The notes under the pieces were generated by a model that was given only the letters and a program-made list of their open reading frames with translations, ran no database searches and was not told where the DNA came from. A stretch of 41,923 bases of DNA from Deltaproteobacteria bacterium. Its GTDB lineage: Bacteria > Desulfobacterota > Binatia > UBA9968. Made by a program: the position numbers and the translations under genes. The stretch lies in the NCBI GenBank assembly GCA_016874755.1, contig VGTH01000048.1, positions 1 to 41,923 of the forward strand, written 5' to 3'. Shown piece after piece: positions 2,872 to 19,063 of the stretch (position 1 is the first letter of the stretch; every line of letters starts with the position of its first letter).

Positions 2872-5504
2872 TGCGCCTGGCGAATTAGCTCCTCGGCTCG
2901 CTTTAACGCTTCGTTGAGCTTTGTCGGGTCTTTGCCGCCGGCCTGAGCGAAATCGGGCCGCCCGCCACCGCCGCCGCCGACGATGCGCGCCAGCTCTTTG
3001 ATGATGTTGCCGGCGTGAAATTTTTTCGTCAGTTCTTTGGAGACAGAGGAAACCAGGCTCACGGTGTCGCCGCTGGCGGCCGCTAGCACGACCACTCCCG
3101 CCCCGAGCTTATCTTTCAACTGATCGGAAATGTCGCGCAGCTGTTTGGCGTCGGTGCCTTCCAGCGCGGCGATCAGAACGTTGGCGCCGTTGATCGATTG
3201 CTTTTTCGCCAGCAGTTCGGGGATCTGATCTTTTTCCAATTGACCGCGCAGCTTCTCGATTTCGCGCTCCAACTCTTTTTGGCGGTCGAGGAGCCGCTTC
3301 ACTTTGTCGATGGCGTCGTCGGCGCTACCGCGGACGAGGTTGCCGATTTCCGTCAGGCGCGCTTCGTAGGCGCGGATCAATTCCAGCGCGCCCTCGCCGG
3401 TGAAGGCCTCGACGCGGCGCACGCCGGCAGCGACGCCGCCCTCGGAGTGCAACTTGAACAGACCGATCTCGCCGGAGCGGCCGACATGGGTGCCGCCGCA
3501 CAGCTCGGTGGAGAAGTCGCCGATCTTCACGACGCGCACGCGGTCGCCGTATTTGTCGCCGAAAAAAGCCAGTGCGCCGCGCTTGATCGCTTCGGCGTAG
3601 GCCAACTCGTCTATATTAACACCGGCGTCCTCACGAATATGGCTATTGACCTGGTTTTCGATCGCCGCCAGCTTTTCATCCGCGATGGCGCCGGTGTGAT
3701 TGAAATCGAAACGCAGCCGGTCCGGCGTCACCAGCGAACCGGCCTGGCGCACATGTTGGCCCAACTCGCGGCGCAGCACGGCGTGCAAAATATGGGTGGC
3801 CGAATGATTCAGCTTGGTGCGCTGGCGCTGTTTGCGGTCGACCGTGAGTTGAACTTTATCACCGACTTGCACGCGGCCTTTTTTCACACGCCCGCGATGC
3901 GCTGTGAGCTGGGGCGTCGGATGGTGGGTATCGATGACCTCGACGAGATCGCCGCGCGCAGTGGCAATTGCGCCGCGGTCGCCGACCTGGCCGCCGGACT
4001 CACCGTAGAAAGGGGTCTCGGCGGTTAACAATTCGATCTCGTCGCCCTCGCCGGCCTCCTGAATACCACCGTTGTTTGAATAAATCGCCAACACCTGCGA
4101 CTCGCCTTCCAAGCGATCGTAGCCGATGAAGCAGACCGGGCGGTCGAGCTGGATCTTGGCTTCCATGCTGACGGTTTCGCGCGCCTCGCGGCCGCGGGCG
4201 CGCTGCTCTTCCATCAGTTTTTCAAAGCCGGCTTGATCGACGCTCATGCCTTCGCCGCGCAGAATGTCTTCCGTCAAATCGAGCGGAAAGCCATAGGTGT
4301 CGTAGAGGCGGAAGGCGACGTCGCCGGACAGAACGTTTTTCCTGTCGCCCTTGAGCTTGGCGGTCGCGTCGTCGAGCAGCACCAAGCCTTTTTCTAGAGT
4401 CTCGCCGAAACGTTCCTCTTCGATGCGAATCACTTCGCCGATGCGCTGCTGCTCGCTACGTAATTCCGGATAGGCATCGCCCATCACTTGAATCACCGTG
4501 CCGGCCACTTGATAGAGGAAGGGGTCTTTCAAACCGATCAAGCGGCCGTGGCGCGCGGCACGACGCAAGAGCCGGCGCAAGACGTAGCCGCGGCCTTCGT
4601 TGCTCGGCGTGACGCCGTCGGCGATCAAGAAGCTCACGGCGCGGGCATGGTCGTCGATGACGCGATAGGAAATATCGGCAACCGGATCGACCCCATATTT
4701 TTTGCCGGTGAGGCGCTCGGTGGTGGCGGTCAACTGGCGCATGGAGTCGATGTCGTAATTGGACAGAACCTTCTGCAGCACGGCGGTGATACGCTCCATG
4801 CCCATGCCGGTGTCGACATGTTTCGACGGCAGTTCTTCCAGCTCGCGATTTTCTTTGCGGTTGTATTGAATGAAAACCAGATTCCACAATTCGATATAAC
4901 GAGCGCAGTCACCGTTGACGCGGCACTCGTGCCCCGCCGGGCCTTGCCAGTCGCAGGCGGCCGGGCCGCGGTCTAGGTGAATCTCGCTGCATGGGCCGCA
5001 GGGGCCGGTCTCGCCCATCTCCCAGAAGTTTTCTTTTTCGCCGAAGCGGCTGACGCGTTCCTTGGGCAGACCGCTGATCTTGAACCAAAGCTGCTCGGCA
5101 GCGTCGTCGTTTAAGTAAACCGTCGCGTAAAGCTTGTCCTTGGGCAGACCCCATTCGTCGGTCAAGAGTTTCCAGGCCCACTCGATCGCTTCGGCCTTGT
5201 AGTAATCGCCGAAGGACCAGTTGCCGAGCATTTCAAAAAACGTGTGGTGATAAGTGTCGCGGCCGACCGCTTCCAAATCGTTGTGCTTGCCGCTGATGCG
5301 CAGACATTTTTGCGAGCTGGCGGCGCGCACGTAGGGCAGCCGCTCTTGGCCGAGAAAAACGTTCTTGAACTGCACCATGCCGGCGTTGGTGAAGAGCAGC
5401 GTCGGATCTTTCTCCGGCACGAGAGATGAGCTGCGCACCACGGTGTGGCCCTGCTTGACGAAATAGTCGAGAAACGATTTGCGTATTGCTGCGGCAGTGA
5501 TCAT
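2868..5504 (-). CDS. alaS: Alanine--tRNA ligase
   Basis: This 878-residue class II synthetase charges tRNA-Ala in the cytoplasm and has the length normal for bacterial AlaRS. Visible parts in order are the N-terminal catalytic core (KQGHTVVRSSSLVPEKDPTL, then the WNLVFIQYNR region); the editing domain with the zinc-site motifs HSATHILH near residue 575 and CGGTHVGRSGEIG near 680; and the C-terminal DHHA1-type domain with a six-glycine run followed by RPDFAQAGG. It starts with ATG three bases after the recX stop. Position between recX and yjbQ matches the conserved recA-recX-alaS order. Confidence 0.98.
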   Translation of the reverse strand: MITAAAIRKSFLDYFVKQGHTVVRSSSLVPEKDPTLLFTNAGMVQFKNVFLGQERLPYVRAASSQKCLRISGKHNDLEAVGRDTYHHTFFEMLGNWSFGDYYKAEAIEWAWKLLTDEWGLPKDKLYATVYLNDDAAEQLWFKISGLPKERVSRFGEKENFWEMGETGPCGPCSEIHLDRGPAACDWQGPAGHECRVNGDCARYIELWNLVFIQYNRKENRELEELPSKHVDTGMGMERITAVLQKVLSNYDIDSMRQLTATTERLTGKKYGVDPVADISYRVIDDHARAVSFLIADGVTPSNEGRGYVLRRLLRRAARHGRLIGLKDPFLYQVAGTVIQVMGDAYPELRSEQQRIGEVIRIEEERFGETLEKGLVLLDDATAKLKGDRKNVLSGDVAFRLYDTYGFPLDLTEDILRGEGMSVDQAGFEKLMEEQRARGREARETVSMEAKIQLDRPVCFIGYDRLEGESQVLAIYSNNGGIQEAGEGDEIELLTAETPFYGESGGQVGDRGAIATARGDLVEVIDTHHPTPQLTAHRGRVKKGRVQVGDKVQLTVDRKQRQRTKLNHSATHILHAVLRRELGQHVRQAGSLVTPDRLRFDFNHTGAIADEKLAAIENQVNSHIREDAGVNIDELAYAEAIKRGALAFFGDKYGDRVRVVKIGDFSTELCGGTHVGRSGEIGLFKLHSEGGVAAGVRRVEAFTGEGALELIRAYEARLTEIGNLVRGSADDAIDKVKRLLDRQKELEREIEKLRGQLEKDQIPELLAKKQSINGANVLIAALEGTDAKQLRDISDQLKDKLGAGVVVLAAASGDTVSLVSSVSKELTKKFHAGNIIKELARIVGGGGGGRPDFAQAGGKDPTKLNEALKRAEELIRQAQ

Positions 5505-5507
5505 TTA

Positions 5508-6005
5508 TTAATCCGCTTCCAGCGAAAATTTCAGCACTTCGTAAATCACTTGGCTGCTGTAGCCGCGCCGCAGCAAAAACGCGGCGGCGCGCTGCAGCTG
5601 TTTGGCATCCTTCAAATCGAGATTGCGGTAATGGCGCGCGATCAGCCGCTTGGCGTTGCGCTTTTCTTCGCCGGCGCTGAAGGCTTCGACGACCGCGTCG
5701 CGGATCACTGCCGGCTTGATGCCTTTAGTGCGCAGCTCGTTCTCGATGCGTTTGGGGCCATAGCCGCGCGAGGTGACTTTCGCCGCCGTCCAACTGCGCG
5801 CGAAGTTGCCGTCATTCAAATAGTTCAACTCACGCAGCCGCGCGACGCTCCGGTCGATGGCGTGGTCGTCGTAGCCCCTCTGGCGCAGATGGCTACGCAG
5901 CTCCGCTTCGCTGCGCGGCCGGTGGCCGAGATAGCGCAGCGCCCGTTGAAAAGCGTCCTGCGCTGGTGGTTGGGAAGGTGAACTCGGCGATCGAGCGGCG
6001 ATCAA
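5508..6005 (-). CDS. recX: Regulatory protein RecX
   Basis: This 165-residue protein has the three-helix RecX repeats, with the pattern ALRYLGHRPRSEAELRSHL followed by RGYGPKRIENELRTKGI and a final RRGYSSQVIYEVLK. RecX binds RecA filaments and limits their growth. The start is probably TTG at 6005, because AAGGAAAG lies about six bases before it and no ATG exists upstream in frame. It lies ten bases after the recA stop, the usual partner. Confidence in the family is high; the exact start is less sure. Confidence 0.92.
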   Translation of the reverse strand: MIAARSPSSPSQPPAQDAFQRALRYLGHRPRSEAELRSHLRQRGYDDHAIDRSVARLRELNYLNDGNFARSWTAAKVTSRGYGPKRIENELRTKGIKPAVIRDAVVEAFSAGEEKRNAKRLIARHYRNLDLKDAKQLQRAAAFLLRRGYSSQVIYEVLKFSLEAD

Positions 6006-6015
6006 AACGCTTTCC

Positions 6016-7077
6016 TTACTTGGCCTTTACCTTTTCCTTTTTGTCCGCTGGCGCCGCAGCTTCGGACGTCGACGAGGTTTCCGGCCGCTTGATGCCGAGC
6101 TTGTCGAGGGCTTTGTTCATGATATCCACTGCGGTGTCGGGATGGTCTCGGAGAAACTGCTTGGCGGCTTCGCGTCCCTGGCCGATGCGCTCACTGCCAT
6201 AAGAGTACCACGCGCCGCTCTTTTCGACGATGCCCATTTCGCTGCCCAGGTCGACGATCTCGCCGTCGCGGGAAATGCCGGTGCCGTAGAGAATGTCGAA
6301 CTCCGCTTCTTTGAACGGCGGTGCCATTTTGTTCTTGACGACTTTGACGCGGGTGCGGCCGCCGATCACGTTGTCGCCATCTTTCAAAGCGCCGGTGCGG
6401 CGAATGTCCATTCTCACCGAGGCGTAAAATTTTAACGCATTGCCGCCGGTGGTGGTCTCCGGGTTGCCGAACATGACGCCGATCTTCATGCGAATCTGGT
6501 TGATGAAAATAACCACGGTATTCGAGCGCGAAATCGTGCCGGTCAATTTGCGCAGCGCCTGCGACATGAGGCGCGCTTGCAGGCCCATGTGGGCGTCGCC
6601 CATCTCGCCCTCGATTTCCGCCTTCGGTACCAGGGCCGCGACCGAGTCGATGACCAACACGTCGATGGCGCCGCTGCGCACCAGGGTCTCGGCGATTTCC
6701 AGCGCCTGCTCGCCATGGTCGGGCTGGGAGATCAAAAGATCGTCGGTCTTGACGCCAAGCTTCTTGGCGTAGACCAGGTCGAGGGCATGCTCGGCGTCGA
6801 TGTACGCCCCCATGCCGCCTTTCTTTTGCGCTTCGGCGACGATGTGCAAAGCCAAGGTCGTCTTACCGGAGGACTCTGGGCCGTAGATTTCGACCACCCG
6901 GCCGCACGGGACGCCGCCGATGCCCAAGGCGATATCGAGGCCAAGAGAGCCGGTGGAAATCACGGCCTGGTCTTTGGCTATGCCGCCTTCGCCCAGCTTC
7001 ATGATCGCGCCCTTGCCGAACTGTCTTTCGATTTGGCTGACAGCGAGGTCGATCGCCTTTTCTCGATTTGCGTCCAT
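6016..7077 (-). CDS. recA: Recombinase RecA
   Basis: This 353-residue RecA has the Walker A motif GPESSGKT at residues 66-73, the Walker B segment [13 protein letters not shown], and the L2-region stretch [22 protein letters not shown]. It catalyses ATP-dependent strand exchange and activates the SOS response. The ATG at 7077 is preferred over a TTG one codon upstream because AAGGAG sits seven bases before the ATG. The C-terminus is Lys/Glu/Ala-rich, as is common. The thpR stop overlaps the ribosome-binding region, so recA is probably read on from pgpA-cinA-thpR; no separate LexA box was recognised by eye. Confidence 0.98.
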
Positions 7078-16217: not shown

Positions 16218-16919
16218 TTAGACGTCCGAGACGGCGTATTGGATCGGATCGCGCAAACCGGCGGCTTGGAAGCCTTTTATGCGCAGCTGACAGCTATCAC
16301 AGCGGCCGCAGGCGCGCGCGTCAGCTTGCGGGTCGTAGCAGCTCCAGGTGAGAGCGTAGTCGACGCCGAGCGCTGCGCCGGCGCGAATGATCTCGGCTTT
16401 GCTCATATGCAAAAGCGGCGCGTGAATGCGCAGCTTAGTTTTTCCCTCGACGCCGGCTTTGGTGGCGAGGTTGGCCATCTTTTCGAAGGCGCGGATATAT
16501 TCCTCGCGACAATCGGGGTAGCCGCTGTAGTCGAGCTGATTGGCGCCGAAAAAAATATCCTGCGCTTCAACGCGCTCTGCCAGCGCCAGCGCGAACGAGA
16601 GAAAAATCGTGTTACGCGCCGGCACGTAGGTTGATGGAATGCCTTGGGAGATTTCCTGGTGCGATCTGTCTTTGGGCACGGCGATCTCATCGGTGAGCGC
16701 CGAGCCGCCGATCGCGCGCAGATCGAAGTCGATGACCACGTGATTTTGGATGCCGAAGAAAGCGGTTACTTTATTCGCCGCTTCGAGCTCGCGCACATGA
16801 CGCTGGCCGTAGCGAAAGCTCAGGGCGTGGAGCGCGAAGCCCTGCTGTTTGGCCATGGCTGCCACCGTGGCTGAGTCAAGGCCGCCGCTCAGTAAGATAA
16901 CGGCGTCTTTGCCCATCAT
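16218..16919 (-). CDS. queC: 7-cyano-7-deazaguanine synthase QueC
   Basis: This 233-residue protein has the PP-loop [16 protein letters not shown] at residues 9-24 and the C-terminal zinc ligands in the pattern [17 protein letters not shown]. QueC converts 7-carboxy-7-deazaguanine, with ATP and ammonia, to preQ0 in the queuosine pathway. Length is normal. The start is one of two adjacent ATG codons, three bases after the rhodanese stop, without a clear Shine-Dalgarno, so coupling to the rhodanese gene is likely. No queD, queE or queF is nearby. Confidence 0.97.
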
Positions 16920-16922
16920 GAA

Positions 16923-17396
16923 TTAAGATTTGGGAACTTTGGTGCCTTCCATGGGGTAGCGTTTTTGGTACCAGCCGACGATTCCTTCGTCGAGCACTTT
17001 CATGTTGCGGTAGCCTTTTTCGTGAAGCATGCCATAGGCCAAACTGGCCAGGTGATGGGGGCAAGCTCAATACAAGACCAGCGGCCGATCTTTGGGCATG
17101 CTGGCCAGATAATAGTTGAACTCGCCGATGGGCGCTGAGACCGCGCCCAGGATATGCACTTCGCGAAACTCTTCTGCGCTGCGCACATCGATGATCACCG
17201 GTTTCTTGCCGGCTTTGATATCGGCCACTAGCTCGTCGACGGAGATAAACTCCGCCTTGATTTCGTCGGGCAATTTTTGCTGGACGTACTCCGGATACTT
17301 TGACGGATCGGCGGCGCTGAACGACGGCGACAACGCACACGCCGCGAGCGCGGCGAACGTCAGGAGAAAGAGATGTAGGCGGCCTGCCATCATCAC
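16923..17396 (-). CDS. Selenocysteine-containing rhodanese (UGA at the active-site cysteine)
   Basis: One frame of 158 codons is interrupted only by TGA at 17067-17069 (codon 110). Before it lies a rhodanese domain (KPVIIDVRSAEEF, residues 65-77) preceded by a signal peptide with a possible lipobox LAAC (Cys20). After it the frame continues for 47 residues, starting ACPHHLASLAYGML and including NMKVLDEGIVGWYQ, as in intact rhodaneses. The TGA falls where the family has its catalytic Cys (...LVLY-C-ACP...). A hairpin directly downstream fits the bacterial SECIS pattern, so selenocysteine is the best reading; 157 residues result. Start is GTG 17396 or ATG 17393, both overlapping the VKOR-thioredoxin stop. 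Predicted to be an exported sulfur-transfer or thiol-redox protein. Standard calling would give a 109-residue stub. Confidence 0.82.
17027..17066 (-). promoter_or_regulatory. Candidate bacterial SECIS hairpin inside the rhodanese gene
   Basis: Counting from the base after UGA, bases 18-22 (GGCCA) pair with 26-30 (TGGCC), leaving a three-base apical loop GUU that begins 22 bases after UGA. A lower stem pairs bases 1-7 (GCUUGCC) with 34-40 (GGCAUGC), with one U-U mismatch. An unpaired U lies just below the upper stem. Loop G in first position, loop distance and stem length fit the general bacterial SECIS pattern, and the unpaired U and loop GU recall the SelB contacts in E. coli fdhF. Folding was done by eye. 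Confidence 0.72.
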
Positions 17397-18271
17397 CGAG
17401 TTTCGGTAAATTTGTACTCGCTATTCTGTGCCAGCGTCTCCAGCGCGATGGTGCCGGTCATGCGCTGGCCTTTGATCACCCAGGTCGGATAGCTCTGCAC
17501 ACCGGCGGTCTTGCACGCTTCGGCGACGGGTCCCTTCGGTCCTGCCGGGCTGCACTCCACGTAGGGCAGGCGCTTGGCCGATGCGCCGAACATTTCTTTT
17601 TGGTCTTTACAGTGCGGGCACCACGAGGCGCCGTAAAATTTTGCTTCGATCTTGGTCAAATGGTCGGCGAGGCCGCGGATCCAGGGATCTTCGATGGTCG
17701 GTGCCTTGCCCCAATAGCCGGCAAAGTGCAGATGCAAAGCAACGATGGCAACGAGCGCGACGCCGGCGGTTTTGCCGAGCCATGGGCCCCAGCTGGAATC
17801 GCGCATGCGCTCGGGCTTCTGCATGGTGACAACGACGAAGATCGCCGCCATCAGACCGAGCGAAGCTAAACAATAGGGGCAGGCTGCTCTTAGTTGGAAG
17901 AACGAGATGAAAGTCAGATAGAGGCTAAAGAGCAAGCCGAAAAACGCTAGCGCCCAGGAAATCTGCCACTGCGATTGAGTGCGCTTGTTCCAGGCGACGG
18001 CGGCGATCAGCGCGTAGGTCAAGAAGCCCCACAGCGACGTCGGTATTCCAAACAATCTGGACCACTCGCTGTTCAACACGACGTCGCAATCGCTGCCAGC
18101 GGTGCAAAATGCCACGAGCTTTTCTTGCCACGCCGAGTAGGTGAGATAGGCGCTCAACGCCATGCCGACACAAGCGAGACCGAAGACAAGCCAATTGGGC
18201 CCATCCTTCACCGCGTTGACCGCGGGCGCCGATCGGGCGTTGGCGTTTTTGCTTTTGGCTGGTTGAGCCAT
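17393..18271 (-). CDS. VKOR-thioredoxin fusion membrane protein
   Basis: This 292-residue protein fuses a four- to five-helix vitamin K epoxide reductase domain (helices about 28-48, 76-94, 104-126, 134-150, 168-184) to a C-terminal thioredoxin-like domain. Visible redox sites are the loop cysteines Cys56 and Cys62, the quinone-side CPYC at 131-134, and the thioredoxin motif WCPHC with Cys218 and Cys221. Such fusions oxidise periplasmic dithiols and pass electrons to quinone, replacing DsbB (with DsbA in the same chain). TTAAGGAGCGG before the ATG is a good ribosome site. Its stop overlaps the rhodanese start. Confidence 0.93.
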   Translation of the reverse strand: MAQPAKSKNANARSAPAVNAVKDGPNWLVFGLACVGMALSAYLTYSAWQEKLVAFCTAGSDCDVVLNSEWSRLFGIPTSLWGFLTYALIAAVAWNKRTQSQWQISWALAFFGLLFSLYLTFISFFQLRAACPYCLASLGLMAAIFVVVTMQKPERMRDSSWGPWLGKTAGVALVAIVALHLHFAGYWGKAPTIEDPWIRGLADHLTKIEAKFYGASWCPHCKDQKEMFGASAKRLPYVECSPAGPKGPVAEACKTAGVQSYPTWVIKGQRMTGTIALETLAQNSEYKFTETR

Positions 18272-18409: not shown

Positions 18410-19063
18410 TTACTCCTTTACCAGCGCGCGTAGATCTTGTTTCAATCGCAGCAGGGCATCCGGCTCGCGGCTATCGTAGTAGCCACGGATCGTCGCCGTG
18501 CTATCAACCAGAACAAAGCGCGGGCTGTGGAGAATAACCGTATCGGTGCCGTCTTGCTTCAACGGCGCCGCGCTCAAGCGAAAGCCGCCTTGAACCAGAT
18601 TGGATATCTGCTCTTTGTCCCCCGTGAGAAATAGCCAGCGTTCGGCGTCGGCTTTGAAGCGCGCTGCGTAGGCCTGCAGCACCGCCGGTGTGTCCTTGGT
18701 CGGATCGACGGAGAAAGAGACCAGTCGGAGGTTGGTCACGTCGGCAAGCTCCGATTGCAGCTTGGCCATCTCTGCGCTTTGCAGCGGACAGGTGTCGGTG
18801 CAAGTGGTGTAGATAAAATCGGCGATCCAAACTTTGCCCTGCAGGTTAGCGAGCGCGATTGGCTTGCCGCTGCGCTCGGTGAGGGTGAAGTCGGGTACGA
18901 CGTTGTGGCGATTCAACCCCTCAAGCGGTTGTTGACCGGGCAGTTGATTCCAGCCGGCGACGCGCTTGGGCGCGAAGTTAAGCCACAGGAGGGTCCCCAG
19001 CCCGATCGCTAGCGTCGTCACGAAGAACCCCAATAGTAAGAGGCGCGTTTTAGATAGAGGCAT
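18410..19063 (-). CDS. SCO1/SenC-family copper and thiol-redox protein
   Basis: This 217-residue protein has an N-terminal membrane anchor (about residues 7-27) and a thioredoxin-like SCO domain. The copper ligand set is complete: CTDTC (Cys88, Cys92) and a distal histidine in VILHSPRF (His179). SCO proteins deliver copper to the CuA site of cytochrome oxidase or act as periplasmic thiol oxidoreductases. No oxidase genes are nearby; the VKOR-thioredoxin and rhodanese genes follow 138 bases downstream on the same strand, which favours a redox role. It faces the plus-strand radical SAM gene across a 212-base gap. Confidence 0.93.
   Translation of the reverse strand: MPLSKTRLLLLGFFVTTLAIGLGTLLWLNFAPKRVAGWNQLPGQQPLEGLNRHNVVPDFTLTERSGKPIALANLQGKVWIADFIYTTCTDTCPLQSAEMAKLQSELADVTNLRLVSFSVDPTKDTPAVLQAYAARFKADAERWLFLTGDKEQISNLVQGGFRLSAAPLKQDGTDTVILHSPRFVLVDSTATIRGYYDSREPDALLRLKQDLRALVKE

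Follow-up and report, generated by a model that had tools for sequence, protein, structure and literature searches.

Rhodanese selenoproteins as such are known. They were predicted in Sargasso Sea and GOS metagenomic data (PMC1088965, PMC2398784), as the preliminary description of the present locus had rightly stated, at least as far as the accessible portions of those papers go. The part of a 2026 review available to us lists five forms, with the motifs UxxS, UxxG, CxU, UxxG and UxxxxU (PMC13188914). There, UxC labels two other proteins, one thioredoxin-like and the other an SO_0444 transporter; the UGC motif of a TlpA-type protein also fits that pattern. Here we analyze a stretch of 41,923 nucleotides (the window; contig VGTH01000048.1 of assembly GCA_016874755.1, Deltaproteobacteria bacterium) that encodes a candidate UxC rhodanese. 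Such a protein is not among the five forms in the available text of the review, and we found no report of one in our searches of open-access literature, a scope outside which many journals lie. Since Sec at the first loop residue is already listed there (UxxS, UxxG), the novelty would lie in the motif UxC, in the operon setting of the gene and in the apparent export of its product. The view of the UxC rhodanese as a further form of a known kind of protein is well supported.

Among the described groups, NF041203 (rhodanese_LYCAU; form 3, CxU) resembles the window protein in being a small rhodanese whose loop, of the CxC type, carries Sec at one residue. However, its Sec is the third loop residue and that of the window protein the first, the window protein scores 63.9 bits, under the 115-bit cut-off for membership, and the two groups are separate in our tree with moderate support. 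In forms 1, 2 and 4 (UxxS, UxxG and UxxG; PMC13188914, available text), compared by motif only, Sec would be the first loop residue as in the window, but the listed motifs name no Cys at +2, whereas the window protein reads U-A-C-P. TsoB, a rhodanese/DsbD fusion-like selenoprotein (NF045694; form 5, UxxxxU), has a rhodanese domain tied by name to disulfide exchange; it is a fusion with two Sec residues, whereas the window protein has one and, at 21 bits against a cut-off of 805, falls outside the group. Finally, cysteine rhodaneses of Myxococcota, Halobacteria, WOR-3 and two families of the same class share the C-x-C-P-H loop, the D-x-R motif and the rhodanese frame at 32-44% identity over 21 rows, but carry Cys where the window has Sec. 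In the four bacterial cases scanned with Pfam (loci L077, at 5410-6546, L129, L130 and L134), the rhodanese stands behind two cytochrome c domains; this does not hold for the WOR-3 relative L076, whose ORF showed neither a cytochrome c part nor a clear signal sequence by eye.

Results

A rhodanese frame with one in-frame TGA

With TGA translated as U, positions 17396..16923 of the reverse strand form a single open frame of 157 residues that reads MMAGRL...LVLY-U-ACPHHLASLAYGML...PKS, with one U at residue 110 in the context LVLY-U-ACPHHL, 47 residues behind it and a TAA stop (Table 1). This reading agrees with the preliminary description, which had placed a single TGA at the active-site cysteine of an otherwise intact frame. 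The strand of the gene is absent from that description. Translation probably begins at the ATG at 17393, which shares bases with the TGA that ends the VKOR gene upstream, rather than at the GTG at 17396. The Pfam Rhodanese profile (PF00581) spans the UGA, matching residues 53-144 with profile positions 2-101 of 102 at 60.7 bits (curated cut-off 22.2), which places the protein in this family. An AlphaFold model (mean pLDDT 84.6) places residue 110 directly after a strand (106-109) and before a helix (115-126), and its best structural matches are solved rhodanese-like structures; fold and loop position, as modeled, are of the rhodanese type. Two residues on from Sec110 lies Cys112, so that the loop reads U-A-C-P-H-H where the cysteine relatives have C-A-C-P-H-H. 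The mechanical ORF list ends the protein at residue 109, in line with the earlier expectation that automatic annotation would break the gene.

Table 1. Coordinates of the gene, its recoding elements and its neighbors in the window.
Feature	Position	Strand	Basis or remark
Sec-rhodanese CDS (predicted)	17393..16923	(-)	156 aa from ATG 17393; 157 aa with GTG 17396 start; TAA stop 16925..16923
In-frame TGA, read as Sec, active-site position 110	17069..17067	(-)	frame reading and orthologues
Putative upper SECIS hairpin, GGCCA-GUU-UGGCC (stem, loop, stem)	17037..17049	(-)	comparison and published model; UGA-to-loop 22 nt
Putative extended hairpin, lower stem UGCC/GGCA and GAGC/GCUU	17025..17068	(-)	minimum-energy fold
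VKOR domain followed by thioredoxin-like part (CPHC)	17393..18271	(-)	Pfam match for VKOR; motif plus weak glutaredoxin/PDI matches for the thioredoxin-like part
SCO1/SenC family protein (TCTDTCP), next gene upstream of the VKOR gene	18410..19063	(-)	family assignment and synteny
QueC, next downstream gene	16218..16919	(-)	starts 3 nt past the rhodanese stop

Conservation of the TGA and of the sequence behind it

A search of 25 genomes of the same family returned 16 strong orthologues, the window gene among them (E <= 7.3e-44; 53-74% identity for the others), all of which carry the TGA. Codon-by-codon reading found the frame open behind it, except that L046 leaves the frame about 15 codons past the TGA, apparently at an assembly join into the next gene; L035 was also flagged with a TAA, which is the gene's own end. 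Because all 16 share the TGA and read on, a chance TGA is excluded, and the close homologues stopping at this codon that the preliminary description had named as a possible refutation did not turn up. Across the class (148 genomes, E 1e-18 or better), 47 places matched: 23 with the TGA (the 16 of the family, one in family f108 and six in f109), eight near relatives without a stop in families f117 and f7, and 16 weaker places (E above 1e-25), also without a stop. Six of the seven TGA places outside the family were read at the codon, and all are U-x-C-P; seven of the eight near relatives read C-x-C-P, and the eighth, L133, was matched by the C-x-C-P pattern. A draw of 395 genomes from the phylum added three matches, namely L062, from another family and with the TGA, and two without a stop. 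Codon-level reading left out L063 and L064 of this draw as well as the 16 weaker class matches; in all 23 loci read (16 in the family, L062 and six outside the family), the predicted Sec is the first loop residue.

Genomes of named species contributed 39 loci. The TGA is present in 12, labeled Deltaproteobacteria, Candidatus Binatia and one 'Syntrophobacter' MAG; at least 11 of these are apparently the same contigs as loci of the family genomes and were not counted twice. The other 27 carry TGC or TGT and are labeled WOR-3, Myxococcales, Kofleriaceae, Labilithrix, Deltaproteobacteria, Proteobacteria and haloarchaea. In an alignment of the window with 33 of the 39 named loci (A3), Y-[U/C]-A-C-P-H-H-L is invariant across all 34 rows; a separate alignment (A1) took in 13 of the 16 family orthologues. 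Over codons +1 to +40 behind the UGA, pN/pS is 0.17 (15 of the 16 family rows, L046 left out), and by this measure the region evolves as protein. pN itself is 0.09 there, compared with 0.25 for the 60 codons before the UGA. The locus thus shows two marks of a selenoprotein gene: coding sequence that is conserved both before and after an in-frame UGA, and alignment of this UGA with a conserved Cys (TGC/TGT in 27 of the 39 named loci, and Cys in all eight f117 and f7 relatives).

A candidate SECIS hairpin behind the UGA

The SECIS-like hairpin noted earlier directly after the UGA is backed by near-frozen codons, a consensus fold and paired stems among the orthologues. In 15 of the 16 family rows (L046 left out), synonymous diversity is 0.13 at codons +5 to +12, compared with 0.52 at 49 other informative codons (Mann-Whitney p 4e-5, a value that is not blind, as these codons were picked after the alignment had been seen). 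At the corresponding places in the 27 cysteine relatives, the codons for His, Leu and Ser are variable, with diversities of 0.40, 0.43 and 0.59. The consensus fold of 14 rows reached -13.4 kcal/mol for the segment starting at the UGA and 0 for segments starting 30-150 nt upstream. Stem pairing was assessed in 20 of the 23 loci, as L046 and L138 repeat other rows and L041, whose hairpin is intact when read, was lost to a position filter. In this set, 99% of stem cells are paired; the changes comprise two from G-C to G-U, one from A-U to G-U and a single pair that is broken, with no two-sided compensatory change among the 20 sequences. A shuffle control was uninformative for this stem, because its columns hardly vary. 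The lower stem of the extended hairpin is less conserved than the upper one.

The bacterial SECIS model, as given in the available text of the review (PMC13188914), specifies a loop of 3-9 nt, a stem of 4-16 bp, a G in the first two loop bases, a distance of 16-37 nt from the UGA and an energy of at most -7.5 kcal/mol. Compared by hand, the window hairpin lies within these limits (a 3-nt loop that opens with G, a 5-bp stem, a spacing of 22 nt, and -15.5 kcal/mol in a 47-nt trim); the shortest trim, which cuts the stem, gave -6.5 kcal/mol. Relative to shuffled sequences, the best z value among four trims was -1.5, the other three ranging from -0.2 to +0.5. Rfam returned no match at gathering scores on the whole window, and two matches far below gathering scores for the 101-base stretch around the UGA. 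The case for the putative hairpin rests on comparison, the energy of the single sequence being unremarkable.

Selenocysteine machinery of the host and its relatives

The genome that holds the window spans 5.56 Mb in 101 contigs and encodes SelA (601 bits, cut-off 268) adjoining SelB (411 bits, cut-off 242), SelD (382 bits, cut-off 125) and a tRNA-Sec (75.9 bits, gathering score 47; next match 44.2). ARAGORN classed this best match as tRNA-SeC (anticodon tca) and the two that follow it as tRNA-Ser. SelA, SelB, SelD and tRNA-Sec are thus all encoded by the host, so the absence of selB or selC, which the preliminary description had named as grounds for rejection, does not apply. The selD gene (L028, contig C16, beside selB and selA) also contains a TGA in frame (KAAG-U-AAKLG), by which SelD is itself a selenoprotein. 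Two of the 11 rhodanese matches in this genome contain an internal TGA, the window gene and one other, and none of its nine molybdopterin oxidoreductase matches contains an internal stop.

SelB scored above its cut-off in 12 of the 16 family carriers (E at most 1e-70), and tRNA-Sec was found in 11 of the 16 (E at most 1e-9). The SelA search was confined to the five SelB-less genomes of the family, four of them carriers; among these four, SelA was found in genomes G013 and G023. tRNA-Sec is present in G022 and G023. At least one of SelB, tRNA-Sec and SelA was found in 15 of the 16 carriers, and none of the three in G010 (93% complete, 670 contigs). We count the missing parts as misses, although we read them as assembly gaps. 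In G024, also of this family, two tRNA-Sec matches of equal score lie on contigs C84 and C261, which may reflect a duplicated contig in this 750-contig assembly.

Gene neighborhood and apparent export

The gene directly upstream of the rhodanese carries a VKOR domain (Pfam, 92.9 bits). The earlier remark on linkage to a VKOR-thioredoxin gene extends well beyond the window: VKOR adjoins the rhodanese in 14 of the 16 family loci and in all five f109 loci, and SCO1 accompanies it in 13 of 16 and three of five, respectively. Flank comparison found no VKOR neighbor at L043, L044, L132 and L062, so the association does not hold throughout. In the available flanks of the 27 named Cys loci and the eight Cys loci of the class, nothing matched the SCO1 or VKOR of the window. 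QueC, downstream, is probably unrelated in function. Hydrophobic N-terminal stretches, seen by eye in the orthologues, make the UxC rhodanese an apparently exported protein. These stretches, the SCO1 and VKOR-thioredoxin neighbors and the cytochrome c fusions of the cysteine relatives together suggest redox work outside the cytoplasm, and we infer a sulfur or thiol redox role there. Two family genomes that carry the UxC form also contain rhodanese paralogues that look exported (L055 at G010:C68 and L056 at G008:C128); their loops read CACPPGG and CDCKPY, and they lack the TGA.

Sister rhodaneses with Sec at the other loop residue

On another contig of the window's genome lies the second TGA rhodanese (L011, also recorded as L104; 1414-1806, (+)), which reads FVFY-C-A-U-PDEF. 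It scores 159 bits against the NF041203 cut-off of 115 and is a member of that group, with Sec at the other CxC residue. Across the family, NF041203 matched eight places in seven of the 25 genomes (E 1e-15 or better), each with one TGA, and only the place in the window's genome exceeds the cut-off. Seven of the eight read C-[A/S]-U-P, L110 being the one without a readable CxU motif. At L058/L105, L106 and L111, rhodanese domains read C-S-U-P; the UGA encodes the third residue of the loop, and a hairpin comes after it. L105 has a VTT (DedA-type) membrane domain ahead of its rhodanese domain. At L107 and L109, C-A-U-P rhodanese domains form the C-terminal end of a sodium/hydrogen exchanger (Pfam PF00999). 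Four genomes (G000, G005, G012 and G015) carry both the UxC and the CxU form, as read at the codon level.

The CxU form has a hairpin of its own at a like place, which is 100% paired in seven sequences and fits the loop, stem, G and spacing limits of the bacterial SECIS model. One base pair shows a two-sided change, from C-G to U-A, that falls on synonymous positions of the codons; the covariation score was reached by 25 of 500 shuffles, so this support is modest. In a tree of 66 rows, built without L062, L046, L110 and four of the five out-group rhodaneses, the UxC sequences form one group (support 62/92) and the CxU sequences another (88/20). This separation makes it likely that Sec was placed separately at the two loop positions, with moderate support, as the columns are few and long branches meet.

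Discussion

The locus almost certainly encodes a single-domain, apparently exported rhodanese whose catalytic Sec is predicted to be inserted at the UGA by SelB, tRNA-Sec and the downstream hairpin. Under one rival account, the gene is an ordinary cysteine rhodanese in which the TGA arose by misassembly or by mutation into a pseudogene; the TGC and TGT codons of the cysteine relatives are one base from TGA. Yet the TGA recurs in 24 genomes of four families, with both the frame and purifying selection going on behind it; orthologue conservation rules out a pseudogene and, indirectly, a sequencing error, which leaves this account a vanishing probability. An open frame alone does not tell which residue is inserted, and the UGA could in principle be read without selenium, either as a reassigned codon (for example, Trp) or by plain read-through of a stop. 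We hold this to be extremely improbable, given that the VKOR gene just upstream and six of the 15 orthologues shown end in TGA, that the aligned residue is cysteine in the relatives read and that the genome has the tRNA-Sec with its tca anticodon along with SelA, SelB and SelD; a code change is rejected on the orthologue evidence. The UGA might also serve as a switch that yields, at low selenium, a 109-residue protein without the catalytic loop but with a role of its own. The 109-aa open frame before the UGA is indeed conserved among the orthologues, but conservation is stronger still after the UGA, indicating that the full-length protein is what selection keeps, and a functional short form appears highly improbable.

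In rhodaneses, the residue at this loop place is the sulfur-carrying nucleophile. Most likely, Sec110 would take up sulfane sulfur or react with a thiol outside the cytoplasm. Cys112 would then resolve it as a selenenylsulfide, with release of sulfide or onward transfer of the disulfide; the presence of a second thiol two residues from Sec suggests such an intermediate, by analogy with other U/C pairs. The neighboring VKOR-thioredoxin protein would be the partner in the exchange of redox equivalents, perhaps in the service of the SCO1 copper protein. Overall, we consider the explanation very probable, with Sec at the active site its firmest part and the sulfur/thiol mechanism a tentative one. 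A different use of the same selenoprotein would be metal binding by UxC and the His-His pair (for example, of copper with SCO1), or peroxide detoxification, in place of sulfur transfer. The usual rhodanese loop is poorer in possible metal ligands than Y-[U/C]-A-C-P-H-H-L, which is invariant in the 34 aligned rows, and a SCO1/SenC gene lies nearby. However, the fold is that of a rhodanese, the loop sits where rhodaneses have it, and His-His is not universal, being replaced by R-H in f108 and f109, H-E in L134-L136 and H-F in L062. We therefore regard a metal or peroxide function as unlikely, though as a serious alternative to sulfur transfer.

For the sulfur/thiol chemistry of the Sec-rhodanese, a relay with the VKOR-thioredoxin protein, perhaps serving SCO1, is a plausible but tentative extension that could well prove wrong. 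More doubtful is a wider picture, in which SCO1, the VKOR-thioredoxin protein and the UxC rhodanese would form a selenium-dependent sulfur/disulfide relay outside the cytoplasm and Sec would have arisen independently at either CxC partner, the CxU paralogues included, so that nucleophile and resolving residue each became Sec in sister proteins.

A plain gene caller would likely end this gene at residue 109 and thereby hide the catalytic loop. The UxC rhodanese would become a sixth form beside the rhodanese selenoproteins listed in the available text of the 2026 review (PMC13188914). Candidate redox partners are suggested by its operon and by the cytochrome c fusions. Together, the UxC and CxU forms within the same genomes and their CxC relatives make up a natural set for asking which of two neighboring thiols gains most from selenium.
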